Below are positions 8,524 through 58,597 of a stretch of DNA of 64,000 bases, piece after piece. This DNA comes from Microbacterium excoecariae (lineage in GTDB: Bacteria > Actinomycetota > Actinomycetes > Actinomycetales > Microbacteriaceae), in the NCBI RefSeq assembly GCF_011326725.1, contig NZ_JAANCO010000001.1:620001-684000 (forward strand), given 5' to 3'. The notes below the pieces were generated by a model that worked only from the letters and a program-made list of their open reading frames with translations, was not told the origin of the DNA and ran no database searches. The stretch's first letter is position 1, and every line of letters starts with the position of its first letter. A program made the translations under genes and the position numbers.

Positions 8524-8548
8524 CGGGCCCCGGCCCGCGGATCCGCGG

Positions 8549-8554
8549 CAGACT
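8549..8554 (+). promoter_or_regulatory. Possible -10 element, leaderless
   Basis: CAGACT lies 7 nt before the ATG at 8562. It matches the spacing seen at other genes here, but the hexamer is a weak match. Confidence 0.35.
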
Positions 8555-8561
8555 GTGAGGC

Positions 8562-8960
8562 ATGACCGTGATCGATGACCTCGCCCCCGAGTTCCGCCGC
8601 CTCCTCGACCTGCCGCTCTACGGCCACCTCGGCACCGTGCGCCCGAACGGCGACGTGCAGGTGAACCCCATGTGGTTCGAGTTCGACGGCGAGCACGTCC
8701 GCTTCACCCACACCACGAAGCGCCAGAAGTACCGCAACCTGCAGGCCAACCCGTCGATGTCGATGTCGATCACCGACCCCGACGAGCCGACGCACTACCT
8801 GGAGGTGCGCGGGCGCCTGGTGGACGTGATTCCGGATCCCGAGGGCACCTTCTACATGCACCTCGGGGAGCGGTACGGCAAGCCGCTGGGCGGCCCGCCC
8901 GCCGACCGCGCCGACCGCGTGATCCTCGTCATGCGGGTGGATCGCACGACGAAGCAGTAG
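8562..8960 (+). CDS. PPOX-class (F420/flavin) oxidoreductase
   Basis: A 132-residue split-barrel protein of the pyridoxamine-phosphate-oxidase-like group that in actinobacteria often binds F420 (Rv1155-like). Visible family features are the N-terminal YGHLGTVRPNGDVQVNPMWF strand pair, the basic THTTKRQKYRNLQANP segment that contacts the cofactor phosphate, and YLEVRGRLVDV. Its substrate is unknown. It ends 4 nt before the stop of the opposite-strand ROK gene. F420 rather than FMN as cofactor is inferred from family resemblance only. Confidence 0.82.
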   Translation: MTVIDDLAPEFRRLLDLPLYGHLGTVRPNGDVQVNPMWFEFDGEHVRFTHTTKRQKYRNLQANPSMSMSITDPDEPTHYLEVRGRLVDVIPDPEGTFYMHLGERYGKPLGGPPADRADRVILVMRVDRTTKQ

Positions 8961-8964
8961 CGAA

Positions 8965-10182: not shown

Positions 10183-10193
10183 CGCCCCGCCCC

Positions 10194-11720: not shown

Positions 11721-11818
11721 GGACGGGGCGTTCCTCTCTGAATCGCGGACAACGCCGGTGGTTCGTGCGGGCGGCGAAGTCGTTGCCACACCGTGACCTG
11801 ATGGTAGGCGAAAACTAT

Positions 11819-11847
11819 TTGTCCGCAGGCCCCGCAATATGTATTCT
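11819..11847 (+). promoter_or_regulatory. Candidate promoter of the ChvE sugar operon
   Basis: TTGTCC (11819-11824), a 17-nt spacer, then TATTCT (11842-11847). Start of transcription would be near 11854, giving a leader of about 165 nt that carries the LacI-type operator. Confidence 0.5.
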
Positions 11848-11982
11848 TCCTGTCAGCGGTCAGGTTCACCGGTCGCCCACACCCCGACGACGGGGCGGGC
11901 GCCAGCCCCACACTCACGTGCGGCGGACCTCCGCCGGGCACGATGCGGTCCCGGCGCGCGGCACATCCCGATGTGCCTGGCG

Positions 11983-11996
11983 TGGGAGCGCTCCGA
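11983..11996. promoter_or_regulatory. CebR/LacI-type operator before chvE
   Basis: TGGGAGCGCTCCGA differs by one base from the palindrome TGGGAGCGCTCCCA known as the CebR site of actinobacteria. It lies 24 nt before the chvE start codon. The same core is found before the LacI gene at 61789. Confidence 0.7.
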
Positions 11997-12020
11997 CACT
12001 CAACGAAGAGAGACACAGCA

Positions 12021-13172
12021 ATGAAGCGCACTGTCCTGAGAGCAGTCGGCGTCGCGGGCGCCATGGCACTCGGCCTCGGCCTCGCGAGCTGCGCGAGCGA
12101 CGGCGGATCCGAGGGCTCGGGCGGCGAGGCGGCGGCGGAAGACATCCGCGTCGGCGTCGCGATGCCGACCGAGACGAGCGAGCGGTGGATCGCCGACGGC
12201 GACGCCGTCGAGTCGCAGCTCGAGGAGGCCGGCTACGAGGTCGACCTCCAGTTCGCCAACGACGACATCCCCACCCAGCAGCAGCAGATCGAGCAGATGA
12301 TCACGAACGGTGCGGACATCCTCATCGTCGCGTCGATCGACGGCACGGCCCTCGCCAGCCAGCTCGAGTCGGCCGCCGACAAGGGGATCCCGATCATCGC
12401 CTACGACCGCCTCATCAACGGCACCGAGGCCGTCGACTTCTACGTCACGTTCGACAACTACCAGGTCGGCGTCCAGCAGGCGCAGTCGCTCCTGCGCGGC
12501 CTCGGCTACCTCGACGAGAACTACGAGGACACGGGCCTCGACGAGGAGAAGATCATCGAGGTGTTCGCCGGCTCGCCCGACGACAACAACACGGGCTTCT
12601 TCTTCGGTGGCGCGATGGACACGCTCGCCCCGTACCTGGAGGACGGTCGCTTGACGATCGGATCCGGGCAGGACGAGCTCGACCAGGTCGCGACGCTGCG
12701 CTGGGACCAGGCGACGGCCCAGAAGCGCATGGAGGACCTGCTCACGTCGACCTACGGCGGCGGATCCGGCCAGCTCGACGGCGTGCTCTCGCCCTACGAC
12801 GGCATCTCGCGCGGCATCATCACGGCGCTGCAGAACGCCGGCTACGGCGACACGATCGAGGACGGCCTGCCGGTCGTCTCCGGCCAGGACGCCGAGATCG
12901 CGTCGGTGTCCATGATCGACCGCGGCGTGCAGTACGCCACGATCTTCAAGGACACCCGCAAGCTCGCCACGCAGGCCGTCGACGCCGCGTCCTCTTACGC
13001 CTCGGGCGAGGAGCCGGAGGCGAACGACACCGACACGTACGACAACGGCACCAAGGTCGTCCCGTCGTTCCTGCTCGAGTCGGACATCGTCACGGCGGAT
13101 GACATTCAGGAGCTCCTGATCGACACGGACTACTGGACCGAGGACGAGATCGCCGCGGGCGTCGCGGAGTAA
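12021..13172 (+). CDS. chvE: ChvE-type monosaccharide-binding lipoprotein
   Basis: A 383-residue extracellular sugar-binding lipoprotein. Signal peptide with lipobox L21-A-S-C24, followed by a low-complexity linker and a type I periplasmic-binding fold (about 42-383). Family features include [14 protein letters not shown], the [23 protein letters not shown] segment and VYDG-like [12 protein letters not shown]. The family binds arabinose, galactose, glucose or xylose; the ligand here is not readable. The ATG follows GAAGAGAG. The gene opens an operon with ATPase and permease; a strong hairpin follows the stop and may make this protein more abundant than the rest. Confidence 0.92.
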
Positions 13173-13187
13173 CGACACCAGGCGGCA

Positions 13188-13220
13188 GGATGGGCGCCCG
13201 CCCCGCGCGGGCGCCCATCC
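13188..13220 (+). terminator. Intra-operon hairpin after chvE
   Basis: A perfect 14-bp stem (13188-13201 with 13207-13220) and a 5-nt loop. No U-run follows. In this position it may act as a partial terminator or 3' end protector that raises binding-protein output over the ATPase and permease. Confidence 0.7.
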
Positions 13221-13243
13221 CCACACACATCGAAGGGGACACC

Positions 13244-14794
13244 ATGTCCGAAGTCATCCTCGAGATGCGCGGCATCACGAAGGACTTCCCCGGCGTCAAG
13301 GTGCTCAAGGGCGTCGACCTGGAGGTCGAGCGCGGCGCGATCCACGCGATCTGCGGCGAGAACGGCGCCGGAAAGTCCACGCTCATGAAGGTGCTGTCGG
13401 GCGTCTACCCGCACGGCACGTACGGCGGCGACATCCGGTTCGACGGCGAGACCGTGCAGTTCGGGTCGATCCGCGACTCGGAGCGCATCGGTATCGTCAT
13501 CATCCACCAGGAGCTGGCGCTCGTGCCGGACCTGTCGATCGCCGAGAACATCTTTCTCGGCAACGAGCGCCGCACCCGTGGTCTCGTCGACTGGAACCGC
13601 ACGAACCACGAGGCCGCGAAGTACATGGAGCGCGTCGGCCTCCACGAGAACCCGACGACGCTCGTCGGCCAGCTGGGCGTTGGCAAGCAGCAGCTGATCG
13701 AGATCGCCAAGGCGATGACGAAGGACGTGAAGCTCCTCATCCTCGACGAGCCCACGGCGGCGCTCAACGACAACGATTCCGAGCACCTGCTCGGTCTCCT
13801 GCGCTCGCTGCGCGACGAGGGCATCACCTCGATCATCATCAGCCACAAGCTCGGCGAGATCGAGGCGGTCTCGGACAAGACGACGGTGATCCGCGACGGC
13901 GAGTCGATCGAGACGATCGACATGCACGCGCCGGACGCCTCGCAGGACCGGATCATCCGGGCCATGGTGGGGCGGTCGCTCGACAACCGCTTCCCCGAGC
14001 GCACGCCGCAGATCGGCGAGGAGGTCTTCCGCGTCGACAACTGGACCGTGTATCACCCCGCGCAGGCGGGCCGCGTCGTCGTCGACAACGCCTCGATCTC
14101 GGTCCGGGCGGGGGAGATCGTGGGCATCGCGGGCCTCATGGGCGCGGGGCGCACCGAGTTCATGATGAGCATCTTCGGGCGCTCGTACGGCCGCGATATC
14201 AGCGGATCCGTGAAGCTGCGGGGCGAGGAGATCTCCACCCGCACCGTGCCCGACGCGATCCGGAACGGCCTGGCCTACGTGTCGGAAGACCGGAAGCACT
14301 ACGGCCTCAACCTCGTCACGGACATCCGCACGAACATCACCTCGGCCGCGCTCGAGAAGCTGAGCAACAAGCTCTCTCTCGTCAACGGCAACGAGGAGAT
14401 CCGCGTCAGCGAGGAGTACCGCAAGGACCTCAACATCAAGACGCCGACGGTCATGCAGAACGTCGGCAACCTCTCCGGCGGCAACCAGCAGAAGGTCGTG
14501 CTGTCGAAGTGGCTGTTCACGGATCCCGACGTGCTGATCCTCGACGAGCCGACGCGCGGGATCGACGTCGGTGCCAAGTACGAGATCTACGAGATCATTC
14601 AGGCCCTCGCCGCCGAGGGCAAGGCGGTCATCGTCGTGTCGAGCGAGCTGCCCGAGCTGCTCGGCATCGCCGACCGCATTTACACCCTCGCGTACGGCCG
14701 CATCACCGGCCAGATGAACGTCGCGGACGCGACGCAGGAGAAGCTCATGACCCTCATGACCATCGAGAACACCGGCACGGAGGCCGCGGCATGA
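13244..14794 (+). CDS. gguA: Multiple-sugar ABC transporter ATPase
   Basis: A 516-residue tandem ATPase energising the ChvE-type importer. Domain 1 has GENGAGKST and [13 protein letters not shown]; domain 2 has GLMGAGRTE in place of a canonical Walker A, LSGGNQQK and [14 protein letters not shown]. The IHQELAL Q-loop is seen in domain 1. The ATG at 13244 follows GAAGGGGA at good spacing; an 18-codon upstream extension would start inside the hairpin and is rejected. The stop overlaps the permease start (ATGA). It is a paralogue of the orphan ATPase at 10194-11720. Confidence 0.93.
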
Positions 14795-16014
14795 ACAACG
14801 TCTTCGTCGAGGCGAAGGACCTCCTCACGCGGAACCTGCGCACCTCCGGCATCTACATCGCGTTCGTCGCGATCATCATCCTCTTCACGATCCTGACGAA
14901 CGGGACGCTGCTCGCGCCCGAGAACGTCACGAACCTCGTGCTGCAGAACGCGCACATCCTCATCATGGCGCTCGGCATGATCCTCGTGATCGTCGCGGGG
15001 CACATCGACCTGTCGGTCGGATCCGTGCTCGCGTTCGCCGCGGCGGTGTCGGCCGTGCTCGTCATCCGCCTGGGCATGCCCTGGTGGGTCGGCGTCATCG
15101 CGGCGATCGCCACCGGCATCGTCGTCGGCGTATGGCAGGGCTTCTGGGTCGCGGTCGTGGGGATCCCGGCGTTCATCGTCACCCTCGCGGGCATGCTGCT
15201 GTTCCGCGGCCTGACCTGGACCGTGCTCGAGAACGTGTCGCTGTCGCCGTTCCCGCACGCCTACCAGGACGTGGCCTCGGGCTTCGTCAACGGCGTGTTC
15301 GGCGAGATCGTGATCGGACAGGGATCCGGGCTGCTCGCGCAGCCGCAGACCCTCGACATCTTCACGATGCTCATCGGCGTGCTCGCGGTCGCGGGCTTCG
15401 TCACGATGCAGGTCCGGGACCGCCGCGCGCGCGTCGCCTACCTGCAGCAGGTCGAGTCGTTGCCCCTGTTCGTCATCAAGCTCGTCGTCGTGGCGGCGGT
15501 CGTCATCGCCTTCGCCTTCGCGCTCGCGTATAACCGCGGCTTCCCGATCGTCCTCATCATCCTGGGCGTGCTGATTCTCGCCTACCAGGTCGTGACGAAC
15601 CGCACCGTGTTCGGCCGCCGCGTCTACGCGGTGGGCGGCAACCTGGCCGCGGCCAAGCTCAGCGGCGTGAACGTCGTCAAGATGAACTTCTGGATCTTCG
15701 TCAACATGGGCATGCTCACGGGCGTCGCGGCCGCGGTCTTCTCGGCCCGCTCGAACGGCGCGCAGCCGGGTATGGGAAACATGTTCGAGCTCGACGTCAT
15801 CGCGGCCTGCTTCATCGGCGGCGCCTCGACGACGGGCGGCATCGGCCGCGTGACCGGCGCCCTCGTCGGTGGCCTCGTCATGGCGGTCATGTCGAACGGC
15901 ATGTCGCTCATGGGCGTGCCGCAGTCGGCGCAGCAGATCGTCAAGGGCCTCGTGCTCCTGCTCGCGGTCGCGTTCGACATCTACAACAAGCGCCGCGCGG
16001 GCATCGCGCGCTGA
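14791..16014 (+). CDS. gguB: Multiple-sugar ABC transporter permease
   Basis: A 407-residue BPD_transp_2-type permease (ribose/xylose permease family) with about 10 membrane segments. The family motifs [10 protein letters not shown] near residue 70 and [19 protein letters not shown] near 330 are present. It is coupled to the ATPase by ATGA overlap. The length fits the GguB/XylH subgroup, which is longer than RbsC. A perfect GC hairpin lies between it and the convergent hpxO gene. Confidence 0.92.
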
Positions 16015-43305: not shown

Positions 43306-46300
43306 CTATGCCCGGCGGCGCCGGAGCGTCAGCGCGCCGAGCGCGAGGAGGGCGAGCGCGGCGATGCCCACGCCGACGAGCGGCGCGTCCCCGCCCGTCG
43401 GGCGGAGGCGCGCGTCCGCGTCCTGGGCGTCGCCGGGACCCTCGTTCACCCCGCCGCTCCCCGAAGCGCCTGTGCCCAAGCCGACCGTCTCTGAGCCGCC
43501 GGAGCCCGAGCCGGGTTCGGAGCCGGTGCCGCCCGCGCCCGTCCCGGACCCCGCGCCACCCGCGCCGGGGCTGACCTGGGCCGCGCGCACCCCGAGGTCG
43601 GCCTCCGCGACCGCGTCGCCCGCCACCGCGCGCAGCACGTAGTCTCCGGCCGGCGTCTCGGCGGGGATCGTGACGCCGCTCTCGGCCCGGCCGTCGGCGC
43701 CCACCGTGAGATCGCCGAGCGCGGTGGGCGTCGCGGCCGCTCGCGCGGCGGGTGAGGCCGCGGTGTCGAACCACAGCGTCACCGCCGACCCGGGCGGGAA
43801 GCCCGCCACGGAGACGCGCACCGCGTCGCCCGCGGTCACCCGGCTCGCGCCGAGCGACAGGGACGGATCCGCGGCCGGGGGCTCCGGATCCGTGCCCGGC
43901 GTGACCCGCACCCGCTGCACAACCGAGTCGGCGGATCCGCCGTTGTCGTCGGTCGTCCGCACGTACCAGCCGTACGCGCCCGGTTCGTCGACCCGCCACA
44001 TCGTCGCCGCGATGGACCCGCTCGCGAGGCCTTCCGCGCGCCCGATCTCGCGCTCCGTCAGCACCTCGGCGCGGAACGCCGAGGTCTCGAGACGCTTCTC
44101 GCGGACGGAGATTCCGAGATCGGCATACGAGACGGTGAAGTCCTGGAAAACGTACGGATCCGTGTCCGGCCCGAGAAGGCTCGCCTCGTCCGAGTTGTAA
44201 TCCAGGAGGGACGGCGAGTAGGTGCGCACACGCATCTGGCCACCGTCGTTGTCGAACTGCAGCAGGCGCAGGTACCCGAGGCCGCCCTCGGACAGGCCCT
44301 GGTAGTCGAACAGCATCGAGTGCACGGTGCGGTCGGCGACGCCGTCGCCGGTGTCATCGAAGCGATCGGTGCGCGTGAAGGCATCGTGGTAGTGCCCCGA
44401 GAACACGAGGTGCACGTTCGGGTTCGTCGCCACGACCTCGTCCATGATCTGCTGTGGGATCGGGCCGAGCCCGCCTGTCGTCAGCATGAACTCGTGCAGG
44501 TTGAGGATCGCGGTGCGCTCCGGGTATCGGGCGAGCACCTCGTTCATCCAGGCGATCGCGTCCTGCTGCGGGTCCCACCCCATGTAGACGGTGATGAAGT
44601 CGATCCCGCCCGCGGTAAACAGGTCGTAGTGGCCGCGGTTGTTCTCGTAGCTGCCGCCGTACCAGGGGTTTCCGGCGTAGCGATCCTCGCCGAAGTACTT
44701 CCCGTACACGCTGTAGTCGGCGAGCTGGTTGCCGACGTCGTGATTGCCCGCGAGCACCCCGTACGGCAGGCCCGCCTCGTCGAGCTTGCGATACTCCGGA
44801 TCCGCGTTCTGCCACTGGTAGGGCTGGTCGAAGTCATCGACGATGTCGCCGGTGTGGATCAGGTACTGGATGTTCTGCTCGTCGCGCTGGTCGAGCACGT
44901 AGTCGTGGATCGCGCTCTGGTGGGAGAAGAACTCCTCGTTGTAATACTGCGTGTCCGACTCCCACGCGATCGTGAAGTCGTACTCGGACCGCGGGGTGTC
45001 CTCGGGGTGCGCGGGGGTCACGGGCGTCTCGCGGGTCGACAGGTCGGGCCCCGCATATCCCTCGGTGTGCTGCACGAGCGCCGTGACGACGCCGTCCGCG
45101 GCGTGGTCGGCGAGCGACACCTCGCCCGCGAGCGTGACCTCCTCGCCGTCGACCGCGGTGAGGTGGCGGGTGACCTCCACCCAGCGGGATCCGTCTGCGG
45201 CGCGCGCGTAGAGGATCAGCTGCGCATCGGCGTTCGCCGTCCCGGTCCACGTCAGGCGCGCGGTGGCGCCGTCTCCCGCGTCCGCGGGCACGTCCACCTC
45301 GAACAGCTGGTACGGCAGCTCGGTTCCCGAGGCGACCGGGGCGAGCCCCTCGCCCGGTGCGAGGGCCTCGGCCTCCGCGCGCTCAAGCGAGGCGGCGTCG
45401 GTCGTCGTGCCGGACGCGGCCCGCACACCCTCGTCGCCGAGCTCCGCGCGCGTGCCCTCGAGGAAGGTCGCGTCGATGCGGTCGTCGGTCGGGTCGGTCA
45501 CCCGCGCCTGCAGCGCGATCTCGCCCGCCTGCACCTCGGCGCCGTCGTCCGGCGCAAAGCCGTCGGATCCGGGGTGCTCCTCGGGCACGAGGAACGTCGC
45601 GGACGCGTCGGCGACGTTGCCGACGGCGTCGGTCGCCGACACCGAGAAGACGTGCTCGCCGGGCGCGAGATCGGCGGAGGAGGCCGCGTGCCCGAGCTCG
45701 ACGCGCTCGCCGTCGAAGGTCGCCACGACGCTCGTCGCGGCGGCGTCCGTCACGGTCGCGTCGAGCACGATGTCGCCCTGGTAGACGTCGCCGTCGGCGA
45801 CGGAGAGCGTCACTTCGGGCGCCGTGTTGTCGACCGTGACGGTGGCCTCGGCGTTCGCGCCGCCGTCCTCCGCGCGGATCCGGTGGGCTCCGTCGGCGAC
45901 GGCCGTCGTGTCCCAGTCGTGGGCGACGGCGCGGAAGGCGTCGTCGGGGAGCGCGAACACGGCCTCGAACGCGTCGAGCTTGCCCGCACTATCGCCCATG
46001 CTCACGAGCGCGGTCGGGTCGTCGTAGCCGGCGGGGCGCAGCGTGCGGCCGTCCGGCAGCACCAGGCGCATCCCCGAGATGACGAAGTCGTCGTTGTTCT
46101 CCGCATCGTCGATCCACGGGCCCGCCTTCGTACCGGCCCAGACGCTCACGGCCAGGTCGGATCCGTGCGCGACGTGGGCGAGCGGGACGGGCACCGAGAT
46201 CGTCTCGGTCGCCTCGTACGTGCCCTCGTCGAAGATGTGCAGGATCTCATCGCCGATGCGCACGCCGTTGCGGAAGTAGAAGTCGGTCTGCGACGCCTCG

Positions 46301-48045
46301 AAGACGAACATCGGCTCGGACTCGAGGGAGGGGCGGGTGGCGACGGCGGATCCGTCGATCGTTAGCTGGAGTGGCGACGGGTACGCGTCGGAGGCGGCCG
46401 AGACGGCGTGCGTGCCCCCGACGAGCTCGCCGTCGTCGACGTTCAGGCGCACCGGATCCGTTGTCGCCCCGGCGACCGCGACGCGGCGCGGCTCGGTCGT
46501 GACGGTGTGGACGCCGTCCGAGACCGTCAGCGTGTACTCGTACCAGGCCTTGCCCATCAGGTCGGCGGCGGCGATCTCATGGGCGTAGCCGTCGGATCCG
46601 TCGTGCGTGAGCGTGACGACCTGAGGGTCCGCGTCGATGTCGTTCGTCAGCGTGAGGGTGGCGGTGCGCACCTGACGGTCGTCGGTGATGCGCCAGGCGA
46701 TGGGGAAGGCGGACGACGGGTCGATCTCGCCCGCCGTGAGGTCCTGGGCGGTCGGCGGGCCCGCGTCCTCGGCCGGCACGACGAGACCGTCCGGGACCTG
46801 GTCGACCTGCACGCGCCCCGGCGACGCGGCGCGGACCTCGACGATCTCCTGCAGGCCGCCCTCCGCGGACGCCCGGTAGTGGATCCCCTGATCCGCGCTC
46901 GTGTCGTCCGCGCCGGCCATGTTGTAGTAGGCGCGGTTGACGGCGAAGCCCGTGTTCGTGCGCACCGCGATACCGCGGGCGGATCCGTTCGCCATGCCCG
47001 CGCTCGAGACCTCCACGAGGCTCTCGCCCGCGACGAGCTCACTGCCGAAGTGCGCGTTGAAGTCGGCGCCCGTGAGGTCGTCGTTCGCGCCGTTCTTGAT
47101 CCACAGCACGAGCGCCTCGCCCGCCGGGATCACGACGTCGGCGGGAACGGCGGGCCACAGGGCCTCGTTCGTGTTCGTCTCCGTGTCCTGGGGATACAGG
47201 TAGGTCAGGGCGTAGTCGGCGAAGCCCACGGGCTCGCTCGAGGCGTTGAACAGCTCGACGAACTCGTACCCGTCGCTGCCGCCGACGTTCGTGGAGTCGG
47301 GCAGGATCTCGGTGACGACGAGCGGGGGGCCCGCGAGGGACGGATCCGGAACCAGCGCGCCGATGTCGGCGGGGCCCGCGGGTTCGGGGTCCTCGCCCGG
47401 CACGAGCTGCTCGGCGGAGACCGTTCCGGGCGTGTAGGGGGCCTGTGGGGTGAGGAGCGCGGAGGCTCCCGAGGCGGACGGGGCGCGGAAATCGGCGCCC
47501 GCGCCCGCGGCCATGGAGCCCGAGGGGGAGAACGACCACCCGAGCACACCGGAGGGACCCTCGACGCGAATAGCCCGGTCGCCGCCGTTGGCGAAGCCGT
47601 TTTGCCCCGTGATCCGTACGACCTGCGTGTCGGCGCCCGCGCCCGTGTGCGCGCGGAAGTCGTCGGCGGAGTACGCCCACGAGTCGACCGTGCTCGTGGT
47701 GTAGCTCAGCCACAGTGCAACCGACTCACCGGGGGCGAGCGTGACGTCCCGCTCCAGGGCGAGCGGGGTGGCGGAACCGGCGGATCCGTCCTCGTAGGCG
47801 TACGAGAAGGTGATGCCCTCGTCGGCGAGCGATACCGCCCGGTCCGCGGTGTTCGTGACCTCGACGTACTCGAAGTGGTCGTAGCCGACGTTATCCGCGA
47901 CGATCTCCGACACGAAGACGGGGCTGGTCTCGTCCGCGGCGGCCGGCGCGGCGGACAGGCCCACGCCGGTCGCGGCGATCGCTGCCGTGACCGCGGCGGC
48001 GAGCGCGCGGGGGAGGGGTCGTCGGGCGGGGAATCGCTCGGGCAT
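43306..48045 (-). CDS. Giant exported lamin-tail / metallophosphatase surface protein
   Basis: A 1579-residue exported protein. Signal peptide ends at AAPAAADE (about 38). Two lamin-tail domains follow (about 40-180, SPVFVSEIVADNVGYDHFEYVE; about 240-400, PPLVVTEILPDSTNVG), then Ig-like regions, and a calcineurin-type metallophosphatase (about 1020-1290) with AWESDTQYY, HTGDIVDD, AGNHDVG and VFSGHYHDAF as metal ligands. An Ig-like stretch and a Gly/Ser linker lead to LRPTGG, a membrane segment and RRRR, an LxxTG-like anchor. It likely hydrolyses an external phosphoester; the substrate is unknown. It lies next to another metallophosphatase and a GH92 enzyme. Confidence 0.9.
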   Translation of the reverse strand: MPERFPARRPLPRALAAAVTAAIAATGVGLSAAPAAADETSPVFVSEIVADNVGYDHFEYVEVTNTADRAVSLADEGITFSYAYEDGSAGSATPLALERDVTLAPGESVALWLSYTTSTVDSWAYSADDFRAHTGAGADTQVVRITGQNGFANGGDRAIRVEGPSGVLGWSFSPSGSMAAGAGADFRAPSASGASALLTPQAPYTPGTVSAEQLVPGEDPEPAGPADIGALVPDPSLAGPPLVVTEILPDSTNVGGSDGYEFVELFNASSEPVGFADYALTYLYPQDTETNTNEALWPAVPADVVIPAGEALVLWIKNGANDDLTGADFNAHFGSELVAGESLVEVSSAGMANGSARGIAVRTNTGFAVNRAYYNMAGADDTSADQGIHYRASAEGGLQEIVEVRAASPGRVQVDQVPDGLVVPAEDAGPPTAQDLTAGEIDPSSAFPIAWRITDDRQVRTATLTLTNDIDADPQVVTLTHDGSDGYAHEIAAADLMGKAWYEYTLTVSDGVHTVTTEPRRVAVAGATTDPVRLNVDDGELVGGTHAVSAASDAYPSPLQLTIDGSAVATRPSLESEPMFVFEASQTDFYFRNGVRIGDEILHIFDEGTYEATETISVPVPLAHVAHGSDLAVSVWAGTKAGPWIDDAENNDDFVISGMRLVLPDGRTLRPAGYDDPTALVSMGDSAGKLDAFEAVFALPDDAFRAVAHDWDTTAVADGAHRIRAEDGGANAEATVTVDNTAPEVTLSVADGDVYQGDIVLDATVTDAAATSVVATFDGERVELGHAASSADLAPGEHVFSVSATDAVGNVADASATFLVPEEHPGSDGFAPDDGAEVQAGEIALQARVTDPTDDRIDATFLEGTRAELGDEGVRAASGTTTDAASLERAEAEALAPGEGLAPVASGTELPYQLFEVDVPADAGDGATARLTWTGTANADAQLILYARAADGSRWVEVTRHLTAVDGEEVTLAGEVSLADHAADGVVTALVQHTEGYAGPDLSTRETPVTPAHPEDTPRSEYDFTIAWESDTQYYNEEFFSHQSAIHDYVLDQRDEQNIQYLIHTGDIVDDFDQPYQWQNADPEYRKLDEAGLPYGVLAGNHDVGNQLADYSVYGKYFGEDRYAGNPWYGGSYENNRGHYDLFTAGGIDFITVYMGWDPQQDAIAWMNEVLARYPERTAILNLHEFMLTTGGLGPIPQQIMDEVVATNPNVHLVFSGHYHDAFTRTDRFDDTGDGVADRTVHSMLFDYQGLSEGGLGYLRLLQFDNDGGQMRVRTYSPSLLDYNSDEASLLGPDTDPYVFQDFTVSYADLGISVREKRLETSAFRAEVLTEREIGRAEGLASGSIAATMWRVDEPGAYGWYVRTTDDNGGSADSVVQRVRVTPGTDPEPPAADPSLSLGASRVTAGDAVRVSVAGFPPGSAVTLWFDTAASPAARAAATPTALGDLTVGADGRAESGVTIPAETPAGDYVLRAVAGDAVAEADLGVRAAQVSPGAGGAGSGTGAGGTGSEPGSGSGGSETVGLGTGASGSGGVNEGPGDAQDADARLRPTGGDAPLVGVGIAALALLALGALTLRRRRA

Positions 48046-49989: not shown

Positions 49990-52900
49990 GTGTCCACCGT
50001 TACGCGGGGCGCCTCGGCGACCTTCCGCACAGTTGACCACAACTCGAGATTGGCATGTGACACCTTGCATAGCAGCAGACCGGCCCCGTCCGACGGCGCG
50101 GCCAGAACGGCACGGATCCCCCTGGGGCGGCGCGGCATCGCCGGCGCCCTCCTCCTCACGCTGTCGACGGGCTCCCTTGCGGCCGTCGCCCTCCCGGCGT
50201 CCGCCGCGACCGGACCCGTGGCGCAGGCCGCGAGCGACGGCACCGTCGCCGAGGCCCTCCGGATCGAGGCCGAGAGCTACACCGGCAATAACGGCGGCGG
50301 CACCAAGACCGAGACGTCCACCGACGCGGTCGGCGAGTCGCTCGGCAACGTCGGCGGCACCTGGGACGGCGCGGAGATCTCCTACGACGCCGTGGACTTC
50401 GGCGAGATCGCACCGGAGCAGCTCACGGTGCGCTACGTCAACAACTCCAGCCGCGTGGGGCAGAACGCCTCGCTCGACTTCTATCTCGACGACACGTCCG
50501 AGGCGAACAAGCTCGTGACCGTCGACCTGCCGGTGACGGGGTCGAACTGGAATGCCTACGGCACCGTGTCCGTCGACCTGCCCGTCGAGGTCACCGGCGA
50601 GCACACGCTGATCGTCGCGATGCACGCGACGACCGACGACGCGCATCCCTACGTCGGCAACTTCGACTGGTTCGAGTTCGGCCCCGCGCCGATCGAGCTT
50701 CCGGACGCATACCTCGACACCGACTCGACCTGGCGCTACTCGGACAACAACACGGATCCCTCCGGCGATGGATCCCTCTCCTGGACGCTCGCCGACTTCG
50801 ACGACGCGGCATGGAAGAGCGGCACGGGGAGCTTCGGCTCGAAGCGCGGCGCGGCCGACCTCGGCGGCGGTTTCGTCGCGAACACGCTGCTCACCTACAC
50901 CCAGCCCGGATCCTCGGACACGGTGCAGACGTACCATTTCCGGACCGACGTGGACATCTCCGCGGCGGAGCTCGCCGAGATCGGCGCCCTCGACGGCACC
51001 GTGACCTACGACGACGCGATCCGGATCTACGTCAACGGCGAGCAGGTGGCCGGGTACGAGGACGGGCGCGTCGACGACGCGGCCAACCCGAACCTGACGT
51101 ACGCGGGCAACAGCAACGGCAACCCCATCACGAGCTCGTTCCAGGTGCCGGCGGAGCTCCTCCGCGCGGGCGAGAACACCGTCTCGGTGGCGCTCTACCA
51201 GGACCGCGAGTCGAGCAGCGACATCTACTTCGACCTCTCAGAGCTCGCGCCCGTCGAGGCCGCGGCGCCCGCCGAGATCTCGGACGTCGTCCTCGGCGTC
51301 GGCGAGACGGAGGCCCAGCGCAACCTCGCCTGGTACTCGAACGTCGACGTCGCGCAGGTCGCGCAGATCGCGCCGGCAGCGGAGGTCGTCGACGGCGTCT
51401 TCCCCGCCTCGGCGACGACCGTCGAGCCGTCCGCGGCCGGCGGCACCTCGAGCGGAGAGTTCTTCCGCGACGTCGAGTTCACGGACCTCGCGGAGAACAC
51501 GGAGTACGCCTACCGCGTCGGAAGCGACGACACCGGCTGGTCGGACGTCTACACCTTCCGCACGCAGGCGTTCTCGGGCGACTTCGAGTTCCTGTTCTTC
51601 GGGGACCCCCAGGTCGGCGCGTCCGGCAACCTCGCCAACGACGAGGCCGGCTGGGTCGACACGATGAACATCGCGACGGAGAGCTACCCCGACGCCGAGA
51701 TGATCTTCTCGGCCGGCGACCAGGTCAACACCGCCTCCAGCGAGGCCGAGTACAGCGCATTCCTGGCCCCCGAGCAGCTCACGAGCGTGCCGCTCGTGGC
51801 GACCAACGGCAACCACGACGTGGGGTCGAAGGCGTACGAGCAGCACTTCAACCTGCCGAACGAGGACCTCACGGCCGGCGCGGCGTCGAGCGGCTCGAGC
51901 TCGGGCGGCGACTACTGGTTCATCTACAAGGACGTCCTGTTCCTGAACATCAACTCGAACAGCCGCGACTACGCCTCGCACAACGCCTTCATGGAGCAGG
52001 TCATCGCGGAGCACGGCGACGAGGCGACCTGGAAGGTGCTCGCCTTCCACCACTCGATCTACTCGGTCGCCTCGCACGCGTTCGACGGCGACATCCTCGA
52101 TCGCCGCACGAACATGCCGCAGACGATCTCGGAGCTCGGGTTCGACGTCGTGCTCATGGGCCACGATCACAACTACACGCGCAGCTACCTCATCGAGAAC
52201 GGCGAGCTCGCCGACGCGCAGGAGATCGCGGGCCAGGCCACGGTCGAGGCGAAGGACGGCGAGGTGCTGTACCTCACGGCCAACTCGGCGAGCGGATCCA
52301 AGTACTACAACACGACGGCTCCGGACGCCTGGTACTCGTCGGTCATGAACCAGGAGAAGGTGCGCAACTACTCGGTCATTGAGGTGACCGAGAGCGACAT
52401 GACGCTGCGCACGCTCCGCAGCGAGGCGAACGGCGCCGAGAGCCCCGTGAACAGCGTGGTGGACGAGGTCGTGCTGACGCGCGACGCCGCCCCCGAGCTC
52501 ACCGTCCCCGCCGACGGCGAGATCGAGCTGGGCGCGTCCTTCGACGCGCTCGAGGGCGTGTCGGCGATCGACAACGTCGACGGCGACCTCACGGAGTCCG
52601 TCACGATCGAGGGCACGGTCGACGTTTCGGTCGCCGGGACCTACGTGCTCACCTACCGCGTGGAGGATGCGCGCGGCAACGAGACGACGCACGAGCGCAC
52701 GGTGACGGTCGTCGCCGCGGGCGACGATGCGGATGCCGAGGGTGCCGCGGACGGATCCGGTTCGGATGCGGATGCCGAGGGTGCTGCGGATGGATCCGGT
52801 TCGGATGCGGATGCCGAGGGTGCTGCGGATGGATCCGGTTCGGGCGCGGATGCCGAGGGCGCAGCGGACGGTGCCGGATCGGATGCGGACGCCGAGGGCG

Positions 52901-53439
52901 CAGCGGACGGTGCCGGTACGGATGCGGATGCCGAGGGCGCCGCGGATGGATCCGGTTCGGGCGCGGACGCTGAGGGTGCCGAGGACGAGCGGCCGGCCTT
53001 CACCCCGGCGGCCCCCGTCGCGAACGGTGCCGACCTCCCGGCGGCGCTCGAGGGCCTCATCGGCGCGTCGGTCTCGGGCGACGTCCTGAGTCTGACGGGC
53101 CTCGAGCCCGGCGCCTGGGCCTACGCCTACGGGTACTCGTCGCCCGTGGGCCTCGGGTGGGCGCTCGCGGACGCCGACGGCCAGGCGACGCTGAACCTCG
53201 CGGGCGTGCTGCCGGCGGGCGAGCACCGCATCGCCGTGCTCGACGCCGACGGCGAGCTCGTCGGGTGGTCCACCGTCACCGTCGCGGACGCCGCGACGGA
53301 CGAGGACGCGGCCTCCGATGACGCCCTCCTCCCGACGGGCGCCGAGCAGGCGGGCACGGCGCTCGCCGCGGGCGTCGCAGCTCTGCTGCTCGCCGCGGGC
53401 GCGGTCCTCTTCTGGGCCCGCCGCCGCGCGATCTCCTAG
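49990..53439 (+). CDS. Surface CBM6 / purple-acid-phosphatase-like metallophosphatase
   Basis: An exported protein of up to 1149 residues. The hydrophobic signal core is at about 50-72 (GIAGALLLTLSTGSLAAVA). Next come a CBM6-like domain (about 91-235), a galactose-binding-like domain (about 240-415), a PAP-type FN3-like domain (about 425-525), the metallophosphatase (about 528-800: FLFFGDPQVG, FSAGDQVN, TNGNHDVG, LAFHHS, MGHDHNYT), an Ig-like DUF5011 domain (about 835-910), 13-residue acidic repeats, and LLPTG plus membrane helix and RRR. The start is uncertain: the N-terminus before the signal core is long, and TTG at 50050 would give a more usual signal peptide. Likely a cell-wall phosphatase on glycan phosphate. 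Confidence 0.85.
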   Translation: MSTVTRGASATFRTVDHNSRLACDTLHSSRPAPSDGAARTARIPLGRRGIAGALLLTLSTGSLAAVALPASAATGPVAQAASDGTVAEALRIEAESYTGNNGGGTKTETSTDAVGESLGNVGGTWDGAEISYDAVDFGEIAPEQLTVRYVNNSSRVGQNASLDFYLDDTSEANKLVTVDLPVTGSNWNAYGTVSVDLPVEVTGEHTLIVAMHATTDDAHPYVGNFDWFEFGPAPIELPDAYLDTDSTWRYSDNNTDPSGDGSLSWTLADFDDAAWKSGTGSFGSKRGAADLGGGFVANTLLTYTQPGSSDTVQTYHFRTDVDISAAELAEIGALDGTVTYDDAIRIYVNGEQVAGYEDGRVDDAANPNLTYAGNSNGNPITSSFQVPAELLRAGENTVSVALYQDRESSSDIYFDLSELAPVEAAAPAEISDVVLGVGETEAQRNLAWYSNVDVAQVAQIAPAAEVVDGVFPASATTVEPSAAGGTSSGEFFRDVEFTDLAENTEYAYRVGSDDTGWSDVYTFRTQAFSGDFEFLFFGDPQVGASGNLANDEAGWVDTMNIATESYPDAEMIFSAGDQVNTASSEAEYSAFLAPEQLTSVPLVATNGNHDVGSKAYEQHFNLPNEDLTAGAASSGSSSGGDYWFIYKDVLFLNINSNSRDYASHNAFMEQVIAEHGDEATWKVLAFHHSIYSVASHAFDGDILDRRTNMPQTISELGFDVVLMGHDHNYTRSYLIENGELADAQEIAGQATVEAKDGEVLYLTANSASGSKYYNTTAPDAWYSSVMNQEKVRNYSVIEVTESDMTLRTLRSEANGAESPVNSVVDEVVLTRDAAPELTVPADGEIELGASFDALEGVSAIDNVDGDLTESVTIEGTVDVSVAGTYVLTYRVEDARGNETTHERTVTVVAAGDDADAEGAADGSGSDADAEGAADGSGSDADAEGAADGSGSGADAEGAADGAGSDADAEGAADGAGTDADAEGAADGSGSGADAEGAEDERPAFTPAAPVANGADLPAALEGLIGASVSGDVLSLTGLEPGAWAYAYGYSSPVGLGWALADADGQATLNLAGVLPAGEHRIAVLDADGELVGWSTVTVADAATDEDAASDDALLPTGAEQAGTALAAGVAALLLAAGAVLFWARRRAIS
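52726..52986 (+). repeat. 39-bp coding tandem repeat (6.7 units)
   Basis: Six full 39-bp units (52726-52959) and part of a seventh encode the 13-residue unit DADAEGAADGSGS with few changes. It is a flexible acidic spacer between the enzyme and the anchor. Near-identity of the DNA suggests recent expansion by slippage. Confidence 0.9.
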
Positions 53440-53448
53440 CGCGATCCA

Positions 53449-53480
53449 CACCGGTGCCGGGCCCCGGCCCGGCACCGGTG
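53449..53480 (+). terminator. Hairpin between the phosphatase and GH92 genes
   Basis: A perfect 15-bp GC stem (53449-53463 with 53466-53480), 9 nt after the stop at 53439. It may end the phosphatase message or protect it. The GH92 start is 39 nt on with its own ribosome site. Confidence 0.7.
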
Positions 53481-53518
53481 CCACGCCCCCCTCCCTCCCC
53501 CTCCTCAGGAAGACACGC

Positions 53519-56500
53519 ATGTCCCCCTCTCTCCGCGCGTCCGCGCTCGTGACCGCCGCCGCTGTCCTGGGCGCGACGCTCCTCCCCGCACCGGCGCTGG
53601 CGGCCGAACCGGCGCCCGCCGCGTCCGACCTGACGGAGTGGGTGAATGCCTTCGTCTCGACCGAGGACGACTTCGGCCAGGATCTCCCCGGCGCCGAGGC
53701 GCCGAACTCGATCGTCAAGATCAACCCCATGACCGCGCCCGGCCGGGCGCACAGCGGCTACGACTACGCCGCCGACCAGATCGCCGGCTTCACGCACACG
53801 AACCTCAACGGCGTGGGCGGATCCGGTGGCGGCGGCGACCTGCTCGTCGTGCCGACCTACGAGACCTACTCCGACCGCCCGGCGACGTCGACGTACGCGG
53901 CGGGCTTCTCTCACGACGAGGAGGAGGCCGAGCCCGGGTACTACGGCGCGCTCCTGGAGGGCGCGGGGGACGCGACCATTCTCGCCGAGGCGACGACCGA
54001 CGTGCGGACGGGCCAGGACCGCTTCACCTTCTCCCACGCGGGCACGGCGTCGATCGTCGTCGACCTGCGCAATAACTTCACGCGCCGCAACTCCGCGACC
54101 CTCGACGTCGAGGAGCTGCCGGACGGCCGCGTCGCGCTGTCCGGCGCGTTCGGCGGGCACTTCAACGGCTACGACTACGAGATGTTCTATCGCGCCGAGA
54201 CGACCGCCGCGGTCGACGGCGTGCGCACGTGGGGCGGATCCGGATCCCTCACCCAGGCCGCGCACCGCGACGGCACCGACATCGGCGCGGTGCTCGAGGT
54301 GGGCGTCGCCGCGGGCGAGGAGGTCGGCCTGCGCGTCGCGGTCTCGCCGATCAGCGCCGAGCAGGCCGAAATCGACCTCGCCGCGGAGATGGGCGAGCGC
54401 ACGTTCGACGAGGTGCGGGCGGACACGTCGGACGCGTGGAACGACATTCTCGGCCGACTCGCCGTGACCGCGTCCGACGCGAGCGACCCCGACGGCGAGC
54501 TGCAGACGCTGTTCTACACGCACCTCTACCGCCTGTTCGGCATGCCGATGAATGCGACGAGCACGAGCGGCACGTACCGCGGCCTGGACGGGGCGATCCA
54601 CGAGGCCGACGGGTACACGCACTACGACGGGTGGGCGCTCTGGGACGACTTCCGCAAGTACGAGATCCTCGCGATCGGCTATCCGGAGGTGTTCCGCGAC
54701 ATCGCGCAGTCGCTCGTTGACCTCTACGCCTCCTTCGCCGACAGCGGGCGCGCGTCCCTCTCGAGCACCGTGCACGCGGTGCCGACCGTGCGCTTCGAGC
54801 GCGCCGCCGTCGTGATCGCCGACGCCGTGGCGAAGGGCGCGGAGCTCGACGGGCTCGCGGACGCGTGGCCCGCGCTCGTCTCGCAGTCGGCGGGCGGCTA
54901 CGCCGACGCCGACAACGTGCGCCGCGGCTACATCGCGAACGAGGTCGACGACACCCTGGGGACGGCCTACGACGACCAGGCGATGGCGACGATCGCGGAG
55001 GAGCTTGGCCGTGACGAGGACGCGGCCGCCTACCGGCTCCGCGCCGCGAACTGGACGAACCTGTTCCGGGAGGACGCCGTGACGCTCGCCGACGGGACGC
55101 GCTCGGGTCTCGTGTTCCCGAAGGACGCCGCGGGGCGCTGGGCGGACGTGGATCCGGAGCGCTTCGAGGCGGGGAACGTCTACCAGGGCACCCTCTGGCA
55201 GTACAACTGGTACGCCGCGGGAGACATGGGCGGAATGGTCGACCTGATGGGCGGCGAGGCCCAGGCGGGCGAGGCGCTCAGCTTCATGTTCGGCGAGCAC
55301 GCGCCGGACGACGGCAGCCGCATGCTGCACTCCAACGCCAACGAGATCGACCTGCAGGCTCCCTACCTGTTCAACTACGTCGGCGAGCCGGCGAAGACCC
55401 AGTACTGGGTCCGCAGCATCTACACGAAGGAGACCTGGAACCGGTACATCGCGACGGGCTCCACGCACGAGGCGCCCTCGTCGGGCGGCGAGTTCACGCC
55501 CGCCGTCAAGACGCGCGTGTTCTCCAATTCTCCGCAGGGTTTCCTCCCCACGATGGACAACGACGCGGGCACCATGTCCTCCACCTTCGTGGCCGCCGCG
55601 CTCGGCCTGTTCCCCGTTCACGCCGGATCCGACGAGTACCAGATCGGCACGCCGTTCTTCGACAACGTGCGCATCACCTACGACACGGGGCGCACCTTCG
55701 ACATCACGGCCCGCGGCGTCACGCCCGACGCCTTCTACATTCAGGACGCCGAGCTCAACGGCGAGGCCTTCGACCGCACGTGGGTCACCTACGACCAGCT
55801 CACCTCCGGAGGGTCCCTCGTCTTCTCGATGGGGACGGATCCGTCGGGCTGGGCCGCGGACGGCGTCGCGCCCTCGTCGCTCAGCGACGACCTCCCGAGC
55901 TCCGTGTACGACGCCGCGAGCGCCGTCGTCGTGAGCGGGCGGGAGTTCACCGAGGCGCCCGCGGGCGACGGATCCGTCGACACCGAGATCGGCCTCACGC
56001 TGCGGAATGGATCCTTCGCGGGACGCGACGGCGAGGACCTCGCCGCCTCCGGTGCCATCGCGGCGAGCGGGGTTCCCGACGGGCTCACCCTCACCGCCGT
56101 GCGCGAGGGCGACCGGGCCGTGACGCTCGCTCTCGCGGGGCAGGCCGTGGCTTCGGGGACTCTCGACAGCATCGATGATCTCGTCGTCGCGGTCTCCGAC
56201 GCGGCGTTCTCCTCCCCGCCCTCGACCGGCTCGCGCGAGTTCGCGCTCAAGGTCACCTTCGACGGCGCCACGCTCCGCGCGGAGCCCGGCCGGGTCCTCG
56301 CCACCCCCGCGGGCGTCGTGGACGCCGAGGTCCTCTTCACGCTGAGCGGCGCCCGGTTCGCCGGCGAGGCGGGCCGCGACCTCGTGGCCGACGGGGTGCT
56401 CGGGCTGCCCGGGCTCCCGGCCTCGATCTCCGCGGTCGCGGAGGTGCGAGATGACTCGACGCTCGCGCTGACCCTGACGGGCGAGCTGGGCGACGCCGAA

Positions 56501-58597
56501 CGCGCGTCGTTCGCGCTGCGGTTCGCCGACGAGGCACTGGCGGGTACGACGGCCGCGGCGCTCCGCGGCGACGGCGTCTCCGGCCTCGGCACGCTCGCGA
56601 TCGTCCGGGATCCGCAGTGGCGCGCTCGCCTCGCCGAGCTCGCCGACGAGGCGGGTCTCGTGGCCCCGGGCGCGTACGCCCCCGCCGCGTTCGCCGCGTT
56701 CGACGCGGCGCGCGAGGCGGCGGCCGGCGTCCTCGCCGACGACGGCGCGACCGACGCCGCGTTGCGCGACGCGTTCTCCGCGCTCCGGCGCGCGGCCGAC
56801 GCGCTCGAGATCACCCCGACGCCCTACCGCGTGCTCGAGGCGGAGGCCTTCGACGCGTGGTCGGGTGGGTCGCTCAAGGTCGAGTCCGGCACCGACGCGA
56901 CGGGCGCCGGGCTGACGAACCTCGGCGGCGTCCTGCCGGGGAGTTGGGTGTCGTATTCCGGGCTCGACTTCGCCGGGTCCGCTCCCGAGAGCGTCCTCGT
57001 CCGCTACGTGAACAACAGCGGGCGCAGCGCGGCCGATGCGACGCTCGAACTCCGGCTGGATGCGCCGGACGGGCCGCTCGTGCAGTCCATCGCCACGCCT
57101 GCGACGGCGTCGACCTGGAGTGGGTACGCCACGATCGACGTGCCCCTCGACGACGACGCGCGCGACGCGCTCGCCGGATCACACGACCTGTACGTCGTGT
57201 TCGAGGGCACGGTGGGAACGAATCCCTGGCTCATCAACCTCGACTGGATCCGCTTCGCCGCGGCGGGCGAGGCAGCGGAGATCGCGCCGGTGCGCATCCA
57301 GGCCGAGGCCTACACGTCGGACAACGGCGGCGGCCTCGCGAAGGAGGGCACGGCCGAGCAGGGCAACGTCGGCGGCACGTGGGACGGCGGCGAGCTCACC
57401 TACGCGTCGGTCGACCTCGGGGAGGACCCCCTCGCCGCGCTCACCGTCCGCACCTCGACCCGCGACGAGCGCATGGGCGAGAACCCGAGGCTCGAGTTCT
57501 TCCTCGACGGAGCGCCCGTCGCGGAGGTGGCCCTGCCGCTGACGGGCGGGTGGGGCGCGTGGCAGGAGACGACCGTCGAGCTGGCGGAGCCCGTGTCCGG
57601 GGCCCACGAGCTCGTCGTCGTGATGCGCGCGGATCCGATCCCGGGCCGCGACTACCAGTACGTGTCGAACCTCGACTGGTACGAGTTCGCGCCCGCGGCC
57701 GGGGCTGTTCCGGCGGTGGACCGGACGGCGCTCCTCGCGACGATCGACGAGGCGGGCGGGATCGAGGCGGTTCCCGAGCGCTACATCCCCATCGACTTCG
57801 CGGTCTTCGCGGCGGCGCTCGCCGACGCCCGCCGCGTCGCCGGCCTCTCCGAGAGCGGTCAGGCCGACGTCGACGAGGCCGCGCGCGTGCTCGGGCTCGC
57901 GTCGGGGCAGCTCGAGTGGCGGCCGGTGCGGGAGCTCCCTCTGCTCATCGCGCGCGCCGAGGCGATCGACACGGCGCCCTACACCCGCGAGAGCGTCGAC
58001 GCGCTCGCCGCGGCGCTCGCCGCCGCACGGGCGACGACGGACGGTGCGGAGTACGCCGCCTTCGATGCGGCGGTATCCGGGCTGCGCGCCGGGATCGCGG
58101 GCCTCGCGCTCGCGGAGGAGCCGGGCGACGGCTCCGGGGGCGCGGACGGCGGATCCGGCGGCGACGCCGGGGCGGGGTCGGACTCGGACGGTGGGGACGC
58201 GGGCTCCGGGGCCGGCTCTGGCGCGGACGGCGTCGGGTCCGACTCCGACGTCGACGCCGGCGCGGGCTCCGACGGATCCGCGGGTTCCGGTTCCGGGGGC
58301 GGCGACGCCTCGGGAGCGGGCGGCACGAGCGGGGGCTCCGCCGCGGGCGGATCCGTCGGTTCCGGATCGGACGACGCGGACGGCTCGGACACGGGAGCGG
58401 GCGGCGCGGGCTTGGGATCCGAGGGCGCGGGTAGCGGATCCGGCTCGACGGGCACGGACGCGGCACCGTCCCCCGGCGCGACCGACGGCCTCCTCGCGAC
58501 GGGAGCGGACCGTGCGGGCGTGTGGGTCGCGGGCGGCCTCGCGGGGCTGCTCCTGATCGCGGCGGGTGCGATCTTCGTGATCCGCCGCCGCGCCTGA
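53519..58597 (+). CDS. Surface GH92 enzyme, probable mannose-phosphate uncapping mannosidase
   Basis: A 1692-residue exported protein. Signal peptide (1-28), GH92 catalytic part (about 35-770), accessory beta domains, two CBM6-like modules (about 1103-1250 and 1257-1390), FIVAR-like helices (about 1400-1540), a Gly/Ser/Asp linker and LLATG, membrane helix, RRR. GH92 hallmarks are HYDGWALWDDFRKYE, WQYNWYAAGDMGG and DNDAGTMSS (D680-N-D682). The usual general-acid Glu of the EGNAWQY motif is Q556 here (YQGTLWQY). From memory, the Cellulosimicrobium GH92 that cleaves mannose-1-phosphate-6-mannose also has Gln there. So the target is probably phosphomannan, not plain alpha-mannan. ATG follows AGGAAG. 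Confidence 0.9.
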   Translation: MSPSLRASALVTAAAVLGATLLPAPALAAEPAPAASDLTEWVNAFVSTEDDFGQDLPGAEAPNSIVKINPMTAPGRAHSGYDYAADQIAGFTHTNLNGVGGSGGGGDLLVVPTYETYSDRPATSTYAAGFSHDEEEAEPGYYGALLEGAGDATILAEATTDVRTGQDRFTFSHAGTASIVVDLRNNFTRRNSATLDVEELPDGRVALSGAFGGHFNGYDYEMFYRAETTAAVDGVRTWGGSGSLTQAAHRDGTDIGAVLEVGVAAGEEVGLRVAVSPISAEQAEIDLAAEMGERTFDEVRADTSDAWNDILGRLAVTASDASDPDGELQTLFYTHLYRLFGMPMNATSTSGTYRGLDGAIHEADGYTHYDGWALWDDFRKYEILAIGYPEVFRDIAQSLVDLYASFADSGRASLSSTVHAVPTVRFERAAVVIADAVAKGAELDGLADAWPALVSQSAGGYADADNVRRGYIANEVDDTLGTAYDDQAMATIAEELGRDEDAAAYRLRAANWTNLFREDAVTLADGTRSGLVFPKDAAGRWADVDPERFEAGNVYQGTLWQYNWYAAGDMGGMVDLMGGEAQAGEALSFMFGEHAPDDGSRMLHSNANEIDLQAPYLFNYVGEPAKTQYWVRSIYTKETWNRYIATGSTHEAPSSGGEFTPAVKTRVFSNSPQGFLPTMDNDAGTMSSTFVAAALGLFPVHAGSDEYQIGTPFFDNVRITYDTGRTFDITARGVTPDAFYIQDAELNGEAFDRTWVTYDQLTSGGSLVFSMGTDPSGWAADGVAPSSLSDDLPSSVYDAASAVVVSGREFTEAPAGDGSVDTEIGLTLRNGSFAGRDGEDLAASGAIAASGVPDGLTLTAVREGDRAVTLALAGQAVASGTLDSIDDLVVAVSDAAFSSPPSTGSREFALKVTFDGATLRAEPGRVLATPAGVVDAEVLFTLSGARFAGEAGRDLVADGVLGLPGLPASISAVAEVRDDSTLALTLTGELGDAERASFALRFADEALAGTTAAALRGDGVSGLGTLAIVRDPQWRARLAELADEAGLVAPGAYAPAAFAAFDAAREAAAGVLADDGATDAALRDAFSALRRAADALEITPTPYRVLEAEAFDAWSGGSLKVESGTDATGAGLTNLGGVLPGSWVSYSGLDFAGSAPESVLVRYVNNSGRSAADATLELRLDAPDGPLVQSIATPATASTWSGYATIDVPLDDDARDALAGSHDLYVVFEGTVGTNPWLINLDWIRFAAAGEAAEIAPVRIQAEAYTSDNGGGLAKEGTAEQGNVGGTWDGGELTYASVDLGEDPLAALTVRTSTRDERMGENPRLEFFLDGAPVAEVALPLTGGWGAWQETTVELAEPVSGAHELVVVMRADPIPGRDYQYVSNLDWYEFAPAAGAVPAVDRTALLATIDEAGGIEAVPERYIPIDFAVFAAALADARRVAGLSESGQADVDEAARVLGLASGQLEWRPVRELPLLIARAEAIDTAPYTRESVDALAAALAAARATTDGAEYAAFDAAVSGLRAGIAGLALAEEPGDGSGGADGGSGGDAGAGSDSDGGDAGSGAGSGADGVGSDSDVDAGAGSDGSAGSGSGGGDASGAGGTSGGSAAGGSVGSGSDDADGSDTGAGGAGLGSEGAGSGSGSTGTDAAPSPGATDGLLATGADRAGVWVAGGLAGLLLIAAGAIFVIRRRA

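Follow-up and report, generated by a model that had tools for sequence, protein, structure and literature searches.

A GH92 protein with Gln in place of the general-acid Glu beside a purple acid phosphatase in Microbacterium excoecariae: a predicted mannosyl-phosphate uncapping pair

The question raised by this locus is what a GH92 protein does when it has lost the residue that its family uses as general acid. GH92 enzymes invert the linkage that they cleave; the acid assists departure of the leaving group and the base activates water (PMC10167667). For BT3990, the excerpts of PMC10167667 and PMC12858847 used here name Glu533 as the acid and Asp644 as the base, and give DED, NDD, NED and NSD as variants of the base motif. 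The window, meaning the whole stretch of 64,000 nucleotides from Microbacterium excoecariae that was analysed, encodes a GH92 protein from which this Glu is absent. Is it a dead enzyme, a plain mannosidase, or an enzyme that opens mannosyl-phosphate caps? An earlier sequence-only reading proposed the last of these, on the precedent of a Cellulosimicrobium GH92 with Gln at the same place. The features of the gene are as follows.

53318-58597, forward strand: open GH92 reading frame, likely start ATG 53519, 1692 aa
53519-58597, forward strand: CcMan5-type GH92 precursor, residue numbers counted from ATG 53519
Residues about 1-29, forward strand: signal peptide, read by eye from the sequence
Residues about 41-276: GH92N domain (Pfam, 145.6 bits, above cut-off)
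Residues about 282-777: GH92 catalytic domain (Pfam, 324.6 bits, above cut-off)
55181-55210, forward strand: acid motif YQGTLWQYNW, with Gln556 (CAG codon, 55184-55186) replacing the catalytic Glu
55550-55570, forward strand: base motif TMDNDAG, with D680-N681-D682
56837-57259, forward strand: CBM6, residues about 1107-1247 (Pfam)
57290-57688, forward strand: second CBM, residues about 1258-1390, with a weak Pfam CBM_35_2 match inside
C-terminus: low-complexity stretch, LLATG-like motif, membrane helix and basic tail, the motif and helix read by eye

The sequence-only reading had given codon 556 as Gln and the DND base region at 680-682 as kept, and both are present as it described; the span 55168-55215 that it assigned brackets the acid motif but is out of the motif's frame. 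D682 falls on the final Asp of the base motif, which is the general base of other GH92s (Asp644 of BT3990), and at least 95% of the 155 aligned GH92 domains have Asp at this position. The preceding residue is Asn in 98% of the CcMan5-clade rows, whereas Glu-type rows have Asp or Glu there, and the base motif as a whole is D-N-D in the clade against N-D-D in most Glu-type members. By eye, the C-terminus reads as a cell-wall anchor, and the protein is predicted to be secreted and anchored.

In a sequence search the closest solved relatives are both entries of CcMan5 (PDB 2xsg and 4aq0), a GH92 member that likewise has Gln at the acid place. The match to 2xsg covers roughly the whole catalytic domain at E 4.5e-253, and the next-ranked GH92 structures are far behind at E 3.7e-60. 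An AlphaFold model built from 11 input sequences is of modest quality (mean pLDDT 69, with 185 residues below 50, including the first 76); it has the two-domain GH92 fold, and its best PDB match is again 2xsg (TM 0.88, rmsd 6.6, 53% identity), followed by other GH92s. CcMan5 comes from C. cellulans and reads LYQGTLWQY, so the Cellulosimicrobium enzyme of the earlier reading is the closest solved relative by both sequence and fold. The GH92 protein of the Cellulosimicrobium cellulans locus L093 is closely related to 2xsg (1643.7 bits) and also has CBM6 modules. In the tree, the window protein lies in a clade with it at SH-aLRT 100, apart from the Glu-type GH92s, and a long branch is flagged at the base of this clade. 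The genome of the window has one further GH92, which is of the Glu type.

A phosphodiester leaving group needs no proton, and Gln is therefore tolerable in the acid place of a GH92 that cleaves one. CcMan5 is described as targeting Man-alpha-1,6-PO4-Man linkages (PMC5930347), and a recombinant C. cellulans alpha-mannosidase has been used for making an enzyme rich in mannose-6-phosphate (M6P) glycan (PMC9246025). Could the window protein instead be a plain alpha-mannosidase in which the acid is a different residue or a water molecule? Several acidic residues, such as D370, D377 and E427, are invariant or nearly so in the CcMan5 clade only, as this explanation would have it. Ordinary GH92s, however, lose most or all of their activity when the Glu is changed to Gln: the mutants described in the excerpts of PMC12858847 and PMC10167667 are AnGH92A E598Q, which is inactive, and NnGH92 E944Q, which retains 4% on yeast mannan. 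A plain mannosidase is thus very unlikely, and it would leave the coupling to phosphatases described below unexplained. A pseudoenzyme that only binds mannose would account for the loss of the acid Glu and for the carbohydrate-binding modules, but it is hardly credible for a clade that keeps the base Asp and many other residues shared across the family, that is found in many actinobacterial genera and that includes CcMan5, an active relative (PMC5930347, PMC9246025).

The distribution of the clade is patchy within the genus, since 4 of 149 Microbacterium genomes, the window's own included, have the gene at E 1e-100. The family-level search gave matches at E 1e-60 or better in 9 of 249 genomes (window's included). 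At class level, scores from 394 genomes split into those of at least 853 bits (55-78% identity, the window's own aside) and those of at most 252 bits (at most 37% identity), and the sole exception is a 90-residue piece of a clade gene in genome G529. A scan across 84,980 species, each represented by a single genome, gave 171 relatives, and the best 80 of these 171 make up 79 named loci. The closest among the best 80 are from Microbacterium, Promicromonospora, Agromyces and Labedella; Nocardioides, Leifsonia, Cellulosimicrobium, Streptomyces and others follow. One of the 79 loci belongs to a pseudomonadote, Solimonas flava, and the rest span many actinobacterial genera. Compostimonas suwonensis (L057) has two Gln-type GH92 genes in tandem, at 3867-9518 and 9548-15682. 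GH92 genes that seem to be split over two frames were seen in Agromyces subbeticus (L055, 9035-10870 and 9784-15192) and at L203.

How general is the Gln? In the alignment of 155 GH92 domains, the Gln of the window protein sits in the acid column, which holds Gln in 95 rows and Glu in 60. The Gln rows are 81 genes of the CcMan5 clade (the window, the 79 named loci and the second copy of L057) and 14 from two other clades. Outside the CcMan5 clade 60 of 74 domains have Glu and 14 have Gln, in agreement with the earlier statement that most GH92s carry Glu as acid. Gln is fixed in the CcMan5 clade, 81 of 81 genes having it, where the 79 loci stand for the best 80 of the 171 relatives and were obtained partly via a peptide that contains the Gln. 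Two Leifsonia loci (L060 and L062, YQGTPWQ) that do not fit this peptide, and were presumably retrieved by the other one, also have Gln, as do all 14 clade loci found by a whole-protein search with no motif (L005-L018).

By motif the Gln rows form three groups: Q1, YQGTLWQ, which is the CcMan5 clade (n = 81); Q2, F[EH]QSTG (n = 6); and Q3, FAQG (n = 8). The Q2 and Q3 groups were partly enlarged once their first examples were known, so that these group sizes are not frequencies, and a broken Q2 gene of L203 and partial GH92 pieces of L055 and L098 were left out of the counts. In a tree of 80 domains calculated with the acid column removed, each of the three groups is one clade at SH-aLRT 100. 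The well-supported branches of this tree, in which long branches are flagged (one at the base of Q1), force three changes between Gln and Glu; placing Q1 and Q2 in one group was rejected (p-AU 0.0024). As Glu is the common state, it is likely that Gln replaced Glu rather than the reverse. In the Q2 lineage GH92 and a purple acid phosphatase share one open reading frame, in the following genes.

L142, 5799-11087, reverse strand: GH92-purple acid phosphatase fusion
L143, 8832-13475, forward strand: GH92-purple acid phosphatase fusion
L144, 5261-11050, reverse strand: GH92-purple acid phosphatase fusion
L200-L202: GH92-purple acid phosphatase fusions

Where measured, Q2 proteins are about 27-28% identical to the window protein. 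Four of the six intact fusions come from genomes of the window's own genus, and genome G749 combines a Q2 fusion with a Q1 gene of 67% identity to that of the window. In the broken gene of L203 the GH92 lies over two frames and a phosphatase reading frame follows it. The Q3 proteins (L149, L159, L209-L212, L214 and L215) have FAQG followed by ATYTWM, and no phosphatase signature was found near their genes.

The gene directly upstream of the window GH92 also encodes a purple acid phosphatase. The features of this part of the window are listed here.

49990-53439, forward strand: purple acid phosphatase gene, start uncertain, directly upstream of the GH92 gene on the same strand
Phosphatase residues (Pfam): CBM6 about 93-231; purple acid phosphatase N-terminal domain 432-525; metallophosphatase 534-729; Ig-like 841-907
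53449-53480, forward strand: GC-rich hairpin of 14 bp with a loop of 4 and no T-run, between the phosphatase stop and the GH92 start
43306-48045, reverse strand: second surface-type metallophosphatase with lamin-tail domains (Pfam) and an LRPTG-like end read by eye, membership in the system uncertain
18879-42647: purine-related genes among the genes scanned (cytosine/purine permease, xanthine/uracil permease, xanthine dehydrogenase-like, XdhC-like)

The phosphatase matches PF16656 and PF00149, its metal-binding motifs GDPQ, AGDQ, GNHD, FHHS and GHDH are all intact, and it ends with an LPTG motif and a membrane helix. Its CBM6 is 43% identical to the second CBM of the GH92 protein. Compared with Q2 fusions, its phosphatase domain shares 41-43% identity with two from its own genus and 26-28% with L142 and L143. 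In the genome of the window its N-domain is the only one of the purple acid phosphatase type to score above cut-off. The 82-nt spacer between the two genes folds at -36.9 kcal/mol (z -3.8); its hairpin argues against simple cotranscription and might act as an incomplete terminator or mark the end of an mRNA. The metallophosphatase at 43306-48045 was dropped as a candidate partner: at E 1e-5 its metallophosphatase region has no counterpart in any of the 79 loci from the best 80 of 171.

An exposed mannose-6-phosphate is a phosphomonoester, the bond type hydrolysed by purple and by class A acid phosphatases, and a coupling of GH92 to either kind is therefore chemically sensible. Such coupling is recurrent. 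A phosphatase fused to the GH92 or within 4 kb of it was detected with HMMs for 59 of 81 Q1 genes, 6 of 6 Q2 genes, 0 of 8 Q3 genes and 0 of 60 Glu-type genes, where the Q1 count rests on the best 80 of 171 relatives (79 loci) with the window and the second L057 copy, and where purple acid phosphatase and PAP2 types only are covered. The HMMs were built from Gln-linked phosphatases and favour these, so that a motif scan independent of them is the fairer control; it gave 58 of 81, 6 of 6, 0 of 8 and 0 of 60. The coupled Q1 genes comprise 40 PAP2 fusions, two with a PAP2 gene just downstream, 15 and the window with a purple acid phosphatase gene upstream, and one with such a gene downstream, the last being a Nocardioides locus in which it lies 2.6 kb from the GH92. 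All 6 intact Q2 genes are fusions to a purple acid phosphatase.

The 15 loci with a purple acid phosphatase homologue upstream on the same strand, among the 79 from the best 80 of 171, include nine in which the reading frames are at most 250 nt apart and six with 1.6-1.8 kb between them. These six (L045-L048, L050 and L069) have one or two extra genes in between, encoding products of about 202-219 and 343-477 aa; the larger product has a weak match to the WxL-interacting protein domain in L048 and L050, the two loci scanned. Two of the 15 are from Promicromonospora, which belongs to a different family from the window's organism. The 40 loci of the same 79 with a PAP2 domain at the C-terminus of the GH92 protein include one that is cut by a contig end. 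The signature KX6RP-PSGH-RX5HX3D is present in 38 of the 40, and in the one member tested the fused domain matches the class A acid phosphatases 1d2t and 2akc. One PAP2 fusion, L061, also has a HAD acid phosphatase gene nearby.

The remaining 22 of 81 Q1 genes have no phosphatase within 4 kb by the HMMs, and 9 of the 11 Cellulosimicrobium loci, L093 included, are among them. A Pfam scan of one to three neighbouring genes each at 7 of 21 uncoupled loci (L056, L066, L068, L090, L093, L098 and L113) gave no phosphatase, and the GH92 proteins of L068, L076, L079 and L105 have no phosphatase domain; at L076 the motif scan sees a nearby PAP2-type reading frame that the profile missed. Phosphatases of other families may lie beside the remaining uncoupled loci. 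A control with Pfam metallophosphatase and PAP2 profiles in 48 genomes placed none within 10 kb of GH92 genes, judged by eye among the matches listed. Contig ends shorten some of the control stretches, in two cases to less than 7 kb. Fisher's test of Q1 and Q2 against the Glu type gives 6e-23, a figure that kinship among the genes makes unfair as a probability; independent contrasts between Gln and Glu number only three in the tree, too few for a significant dependence of coupling on Gln. The Q3 lineage, with Gln and no phosphatase nearby, indicates that Gln alone occurs apart from such coupling. The coupling, seen in two separate Gln lineages, suggests that GH92 and phosphatase act in a shared pathway.

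Taken with the CcMan5 match and the published Glu-to-Gln mutants, the coupling supports the earlier proposal that the window protein is an uncapping enzyme and neither a dead nor a plain mannosidase. It is likely that a surface-bound CcMan5-type GH92 uncaps phosphomannan and that the adjacent purple acid phosphatase then removes the exposed phosphate. The secreted, surface-bound GH92 would hydrolyse the alpha-mannosyl-phosphate bond of mannose-1-phosphate-6-mannose caps with a water molecule activated by Asp682, helped by Asp680 and Ca2+. The phosphate would depart without a proton donor, which would make the general-acid Glu dispensable and is proposed as the reason for the Gln. The products would be free mannose and a mannose-6-phosphate end. 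From that end the CBM-bearing phosphatase next door probably strips the phosphate bared by the cut, its substrate being predicted from its position and motifs, and an ordinary mannose end would be left for other mannosidases.

Which glycan carries the cap is a further question. It has been considered that the GH92 cleaves an alpha-mannosyl-phosphate diester of another glycoconjugate, for example a bacterial phosphoglycan, and that the phosphatase mainly scavenges phosphate. The Gln and the phosphatase chemistry fit this as well. The scanned genes around the pair are not mannan genes, and the genome of the window has no GH76 match, so that the organism is probably no full mannan degrader. Against this explanation, the sole characterised relative acts on yeast-type Man-P-Man glycans, as the available text of PMC5930347 and PMC9246025 describes it, and a PHO-box-like repeat (typed consensus) was not enriched upstream of the clade genes (mean rank 0.51 in the 72 loci used of the 79), which speaks against the scavenging part. 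Another glycoconjugate is therefore regarded as unlikely and phosphomannan is the preferred substrate. A direct repeat resembling GTTCGCC-N4-GTACGCC was seen upstream of the GH92 gene in several Streptomyces and Actinacidiphila loci (for example L072, L075, L101, L109 and L121).

A wider reading can be put forward tentatively, at somewhat less than even confidence. The acid Glu may have been lost at least three times, and two of the lineages may have recruited a phosphatase repeatedly (as a PAP2 fusion, a purple acid phosphatase gene and a purple acid phosphatase fusion), which would form a recurrent extracellular module that converts a cap to mannose and phosphate; Q2 would then be an independently evolved two-headed uncapping enzyme. 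Literature searches, which covered part of the literature, found no report of a GH92-phosphatase fusion or of Q2 as such an enzyme. In the available text of PMC5930347 one GH92 that opens mannosyl-phosphate caps is named. A sequence rule that combines Gln at the acid position with a phosphatase partner would lead to further enzymes of this kind, also in the second lineage. It would likewise yield a specific hypothesis on the route by which bacteria take phosphate off phosphomannan. Nature also provides here a test of whether the general acid can be dispensed with when the leaving group is good. Mannose-6-phosphate glycans for lysosomal enzymes are produced with a C. cellulans mannosidase (PMC9246025). 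A fused phosphatase would be a disadvantage in such production, which would call for the GH92 domain of a fusion on its own.

Among known systems, CcMan5 (2xsg, 4aq0) is like the window GH92 over the whole catalytic domain, in the Gln at the acid place, in the DND base motif and in a clade-specific WNRY insert, and the two are about 53% identical in the fold alignment. They differ in that the window GH92 is paired with a purple acid phosphatase, whereas the C. cellulans locus L093 showed no such gene. The ordinary GH92s (BT3990, BT3130, BT3965 and NnGH92) share the fold and the base Asp, but have Glu as acid, and in the 60 Glu-type rows the insert near window residues 640-646 is missing. The PAP2 domain that 40 clade members carry fused to their GH92 resembles class A acid phosphatases (1d2t and PhoN, 2akc); the window protein is without PAP2. 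The neighbouring phosphatase is like other purple acid phosphatases in its N-terminal domain and metallophosphatase motifs, and unlike known ones in having a CBM6 and an LPTG-type end, the closest PDB entry, 3zk4, being a weak match (E 3.3e-4). The window enzyme is well supported as a further member of the CcMan5 type; what goes beyond that type, with no report in the literature covered, is that such genes are coupled to phosphatases and that Q2 forms a second Gln lineage.
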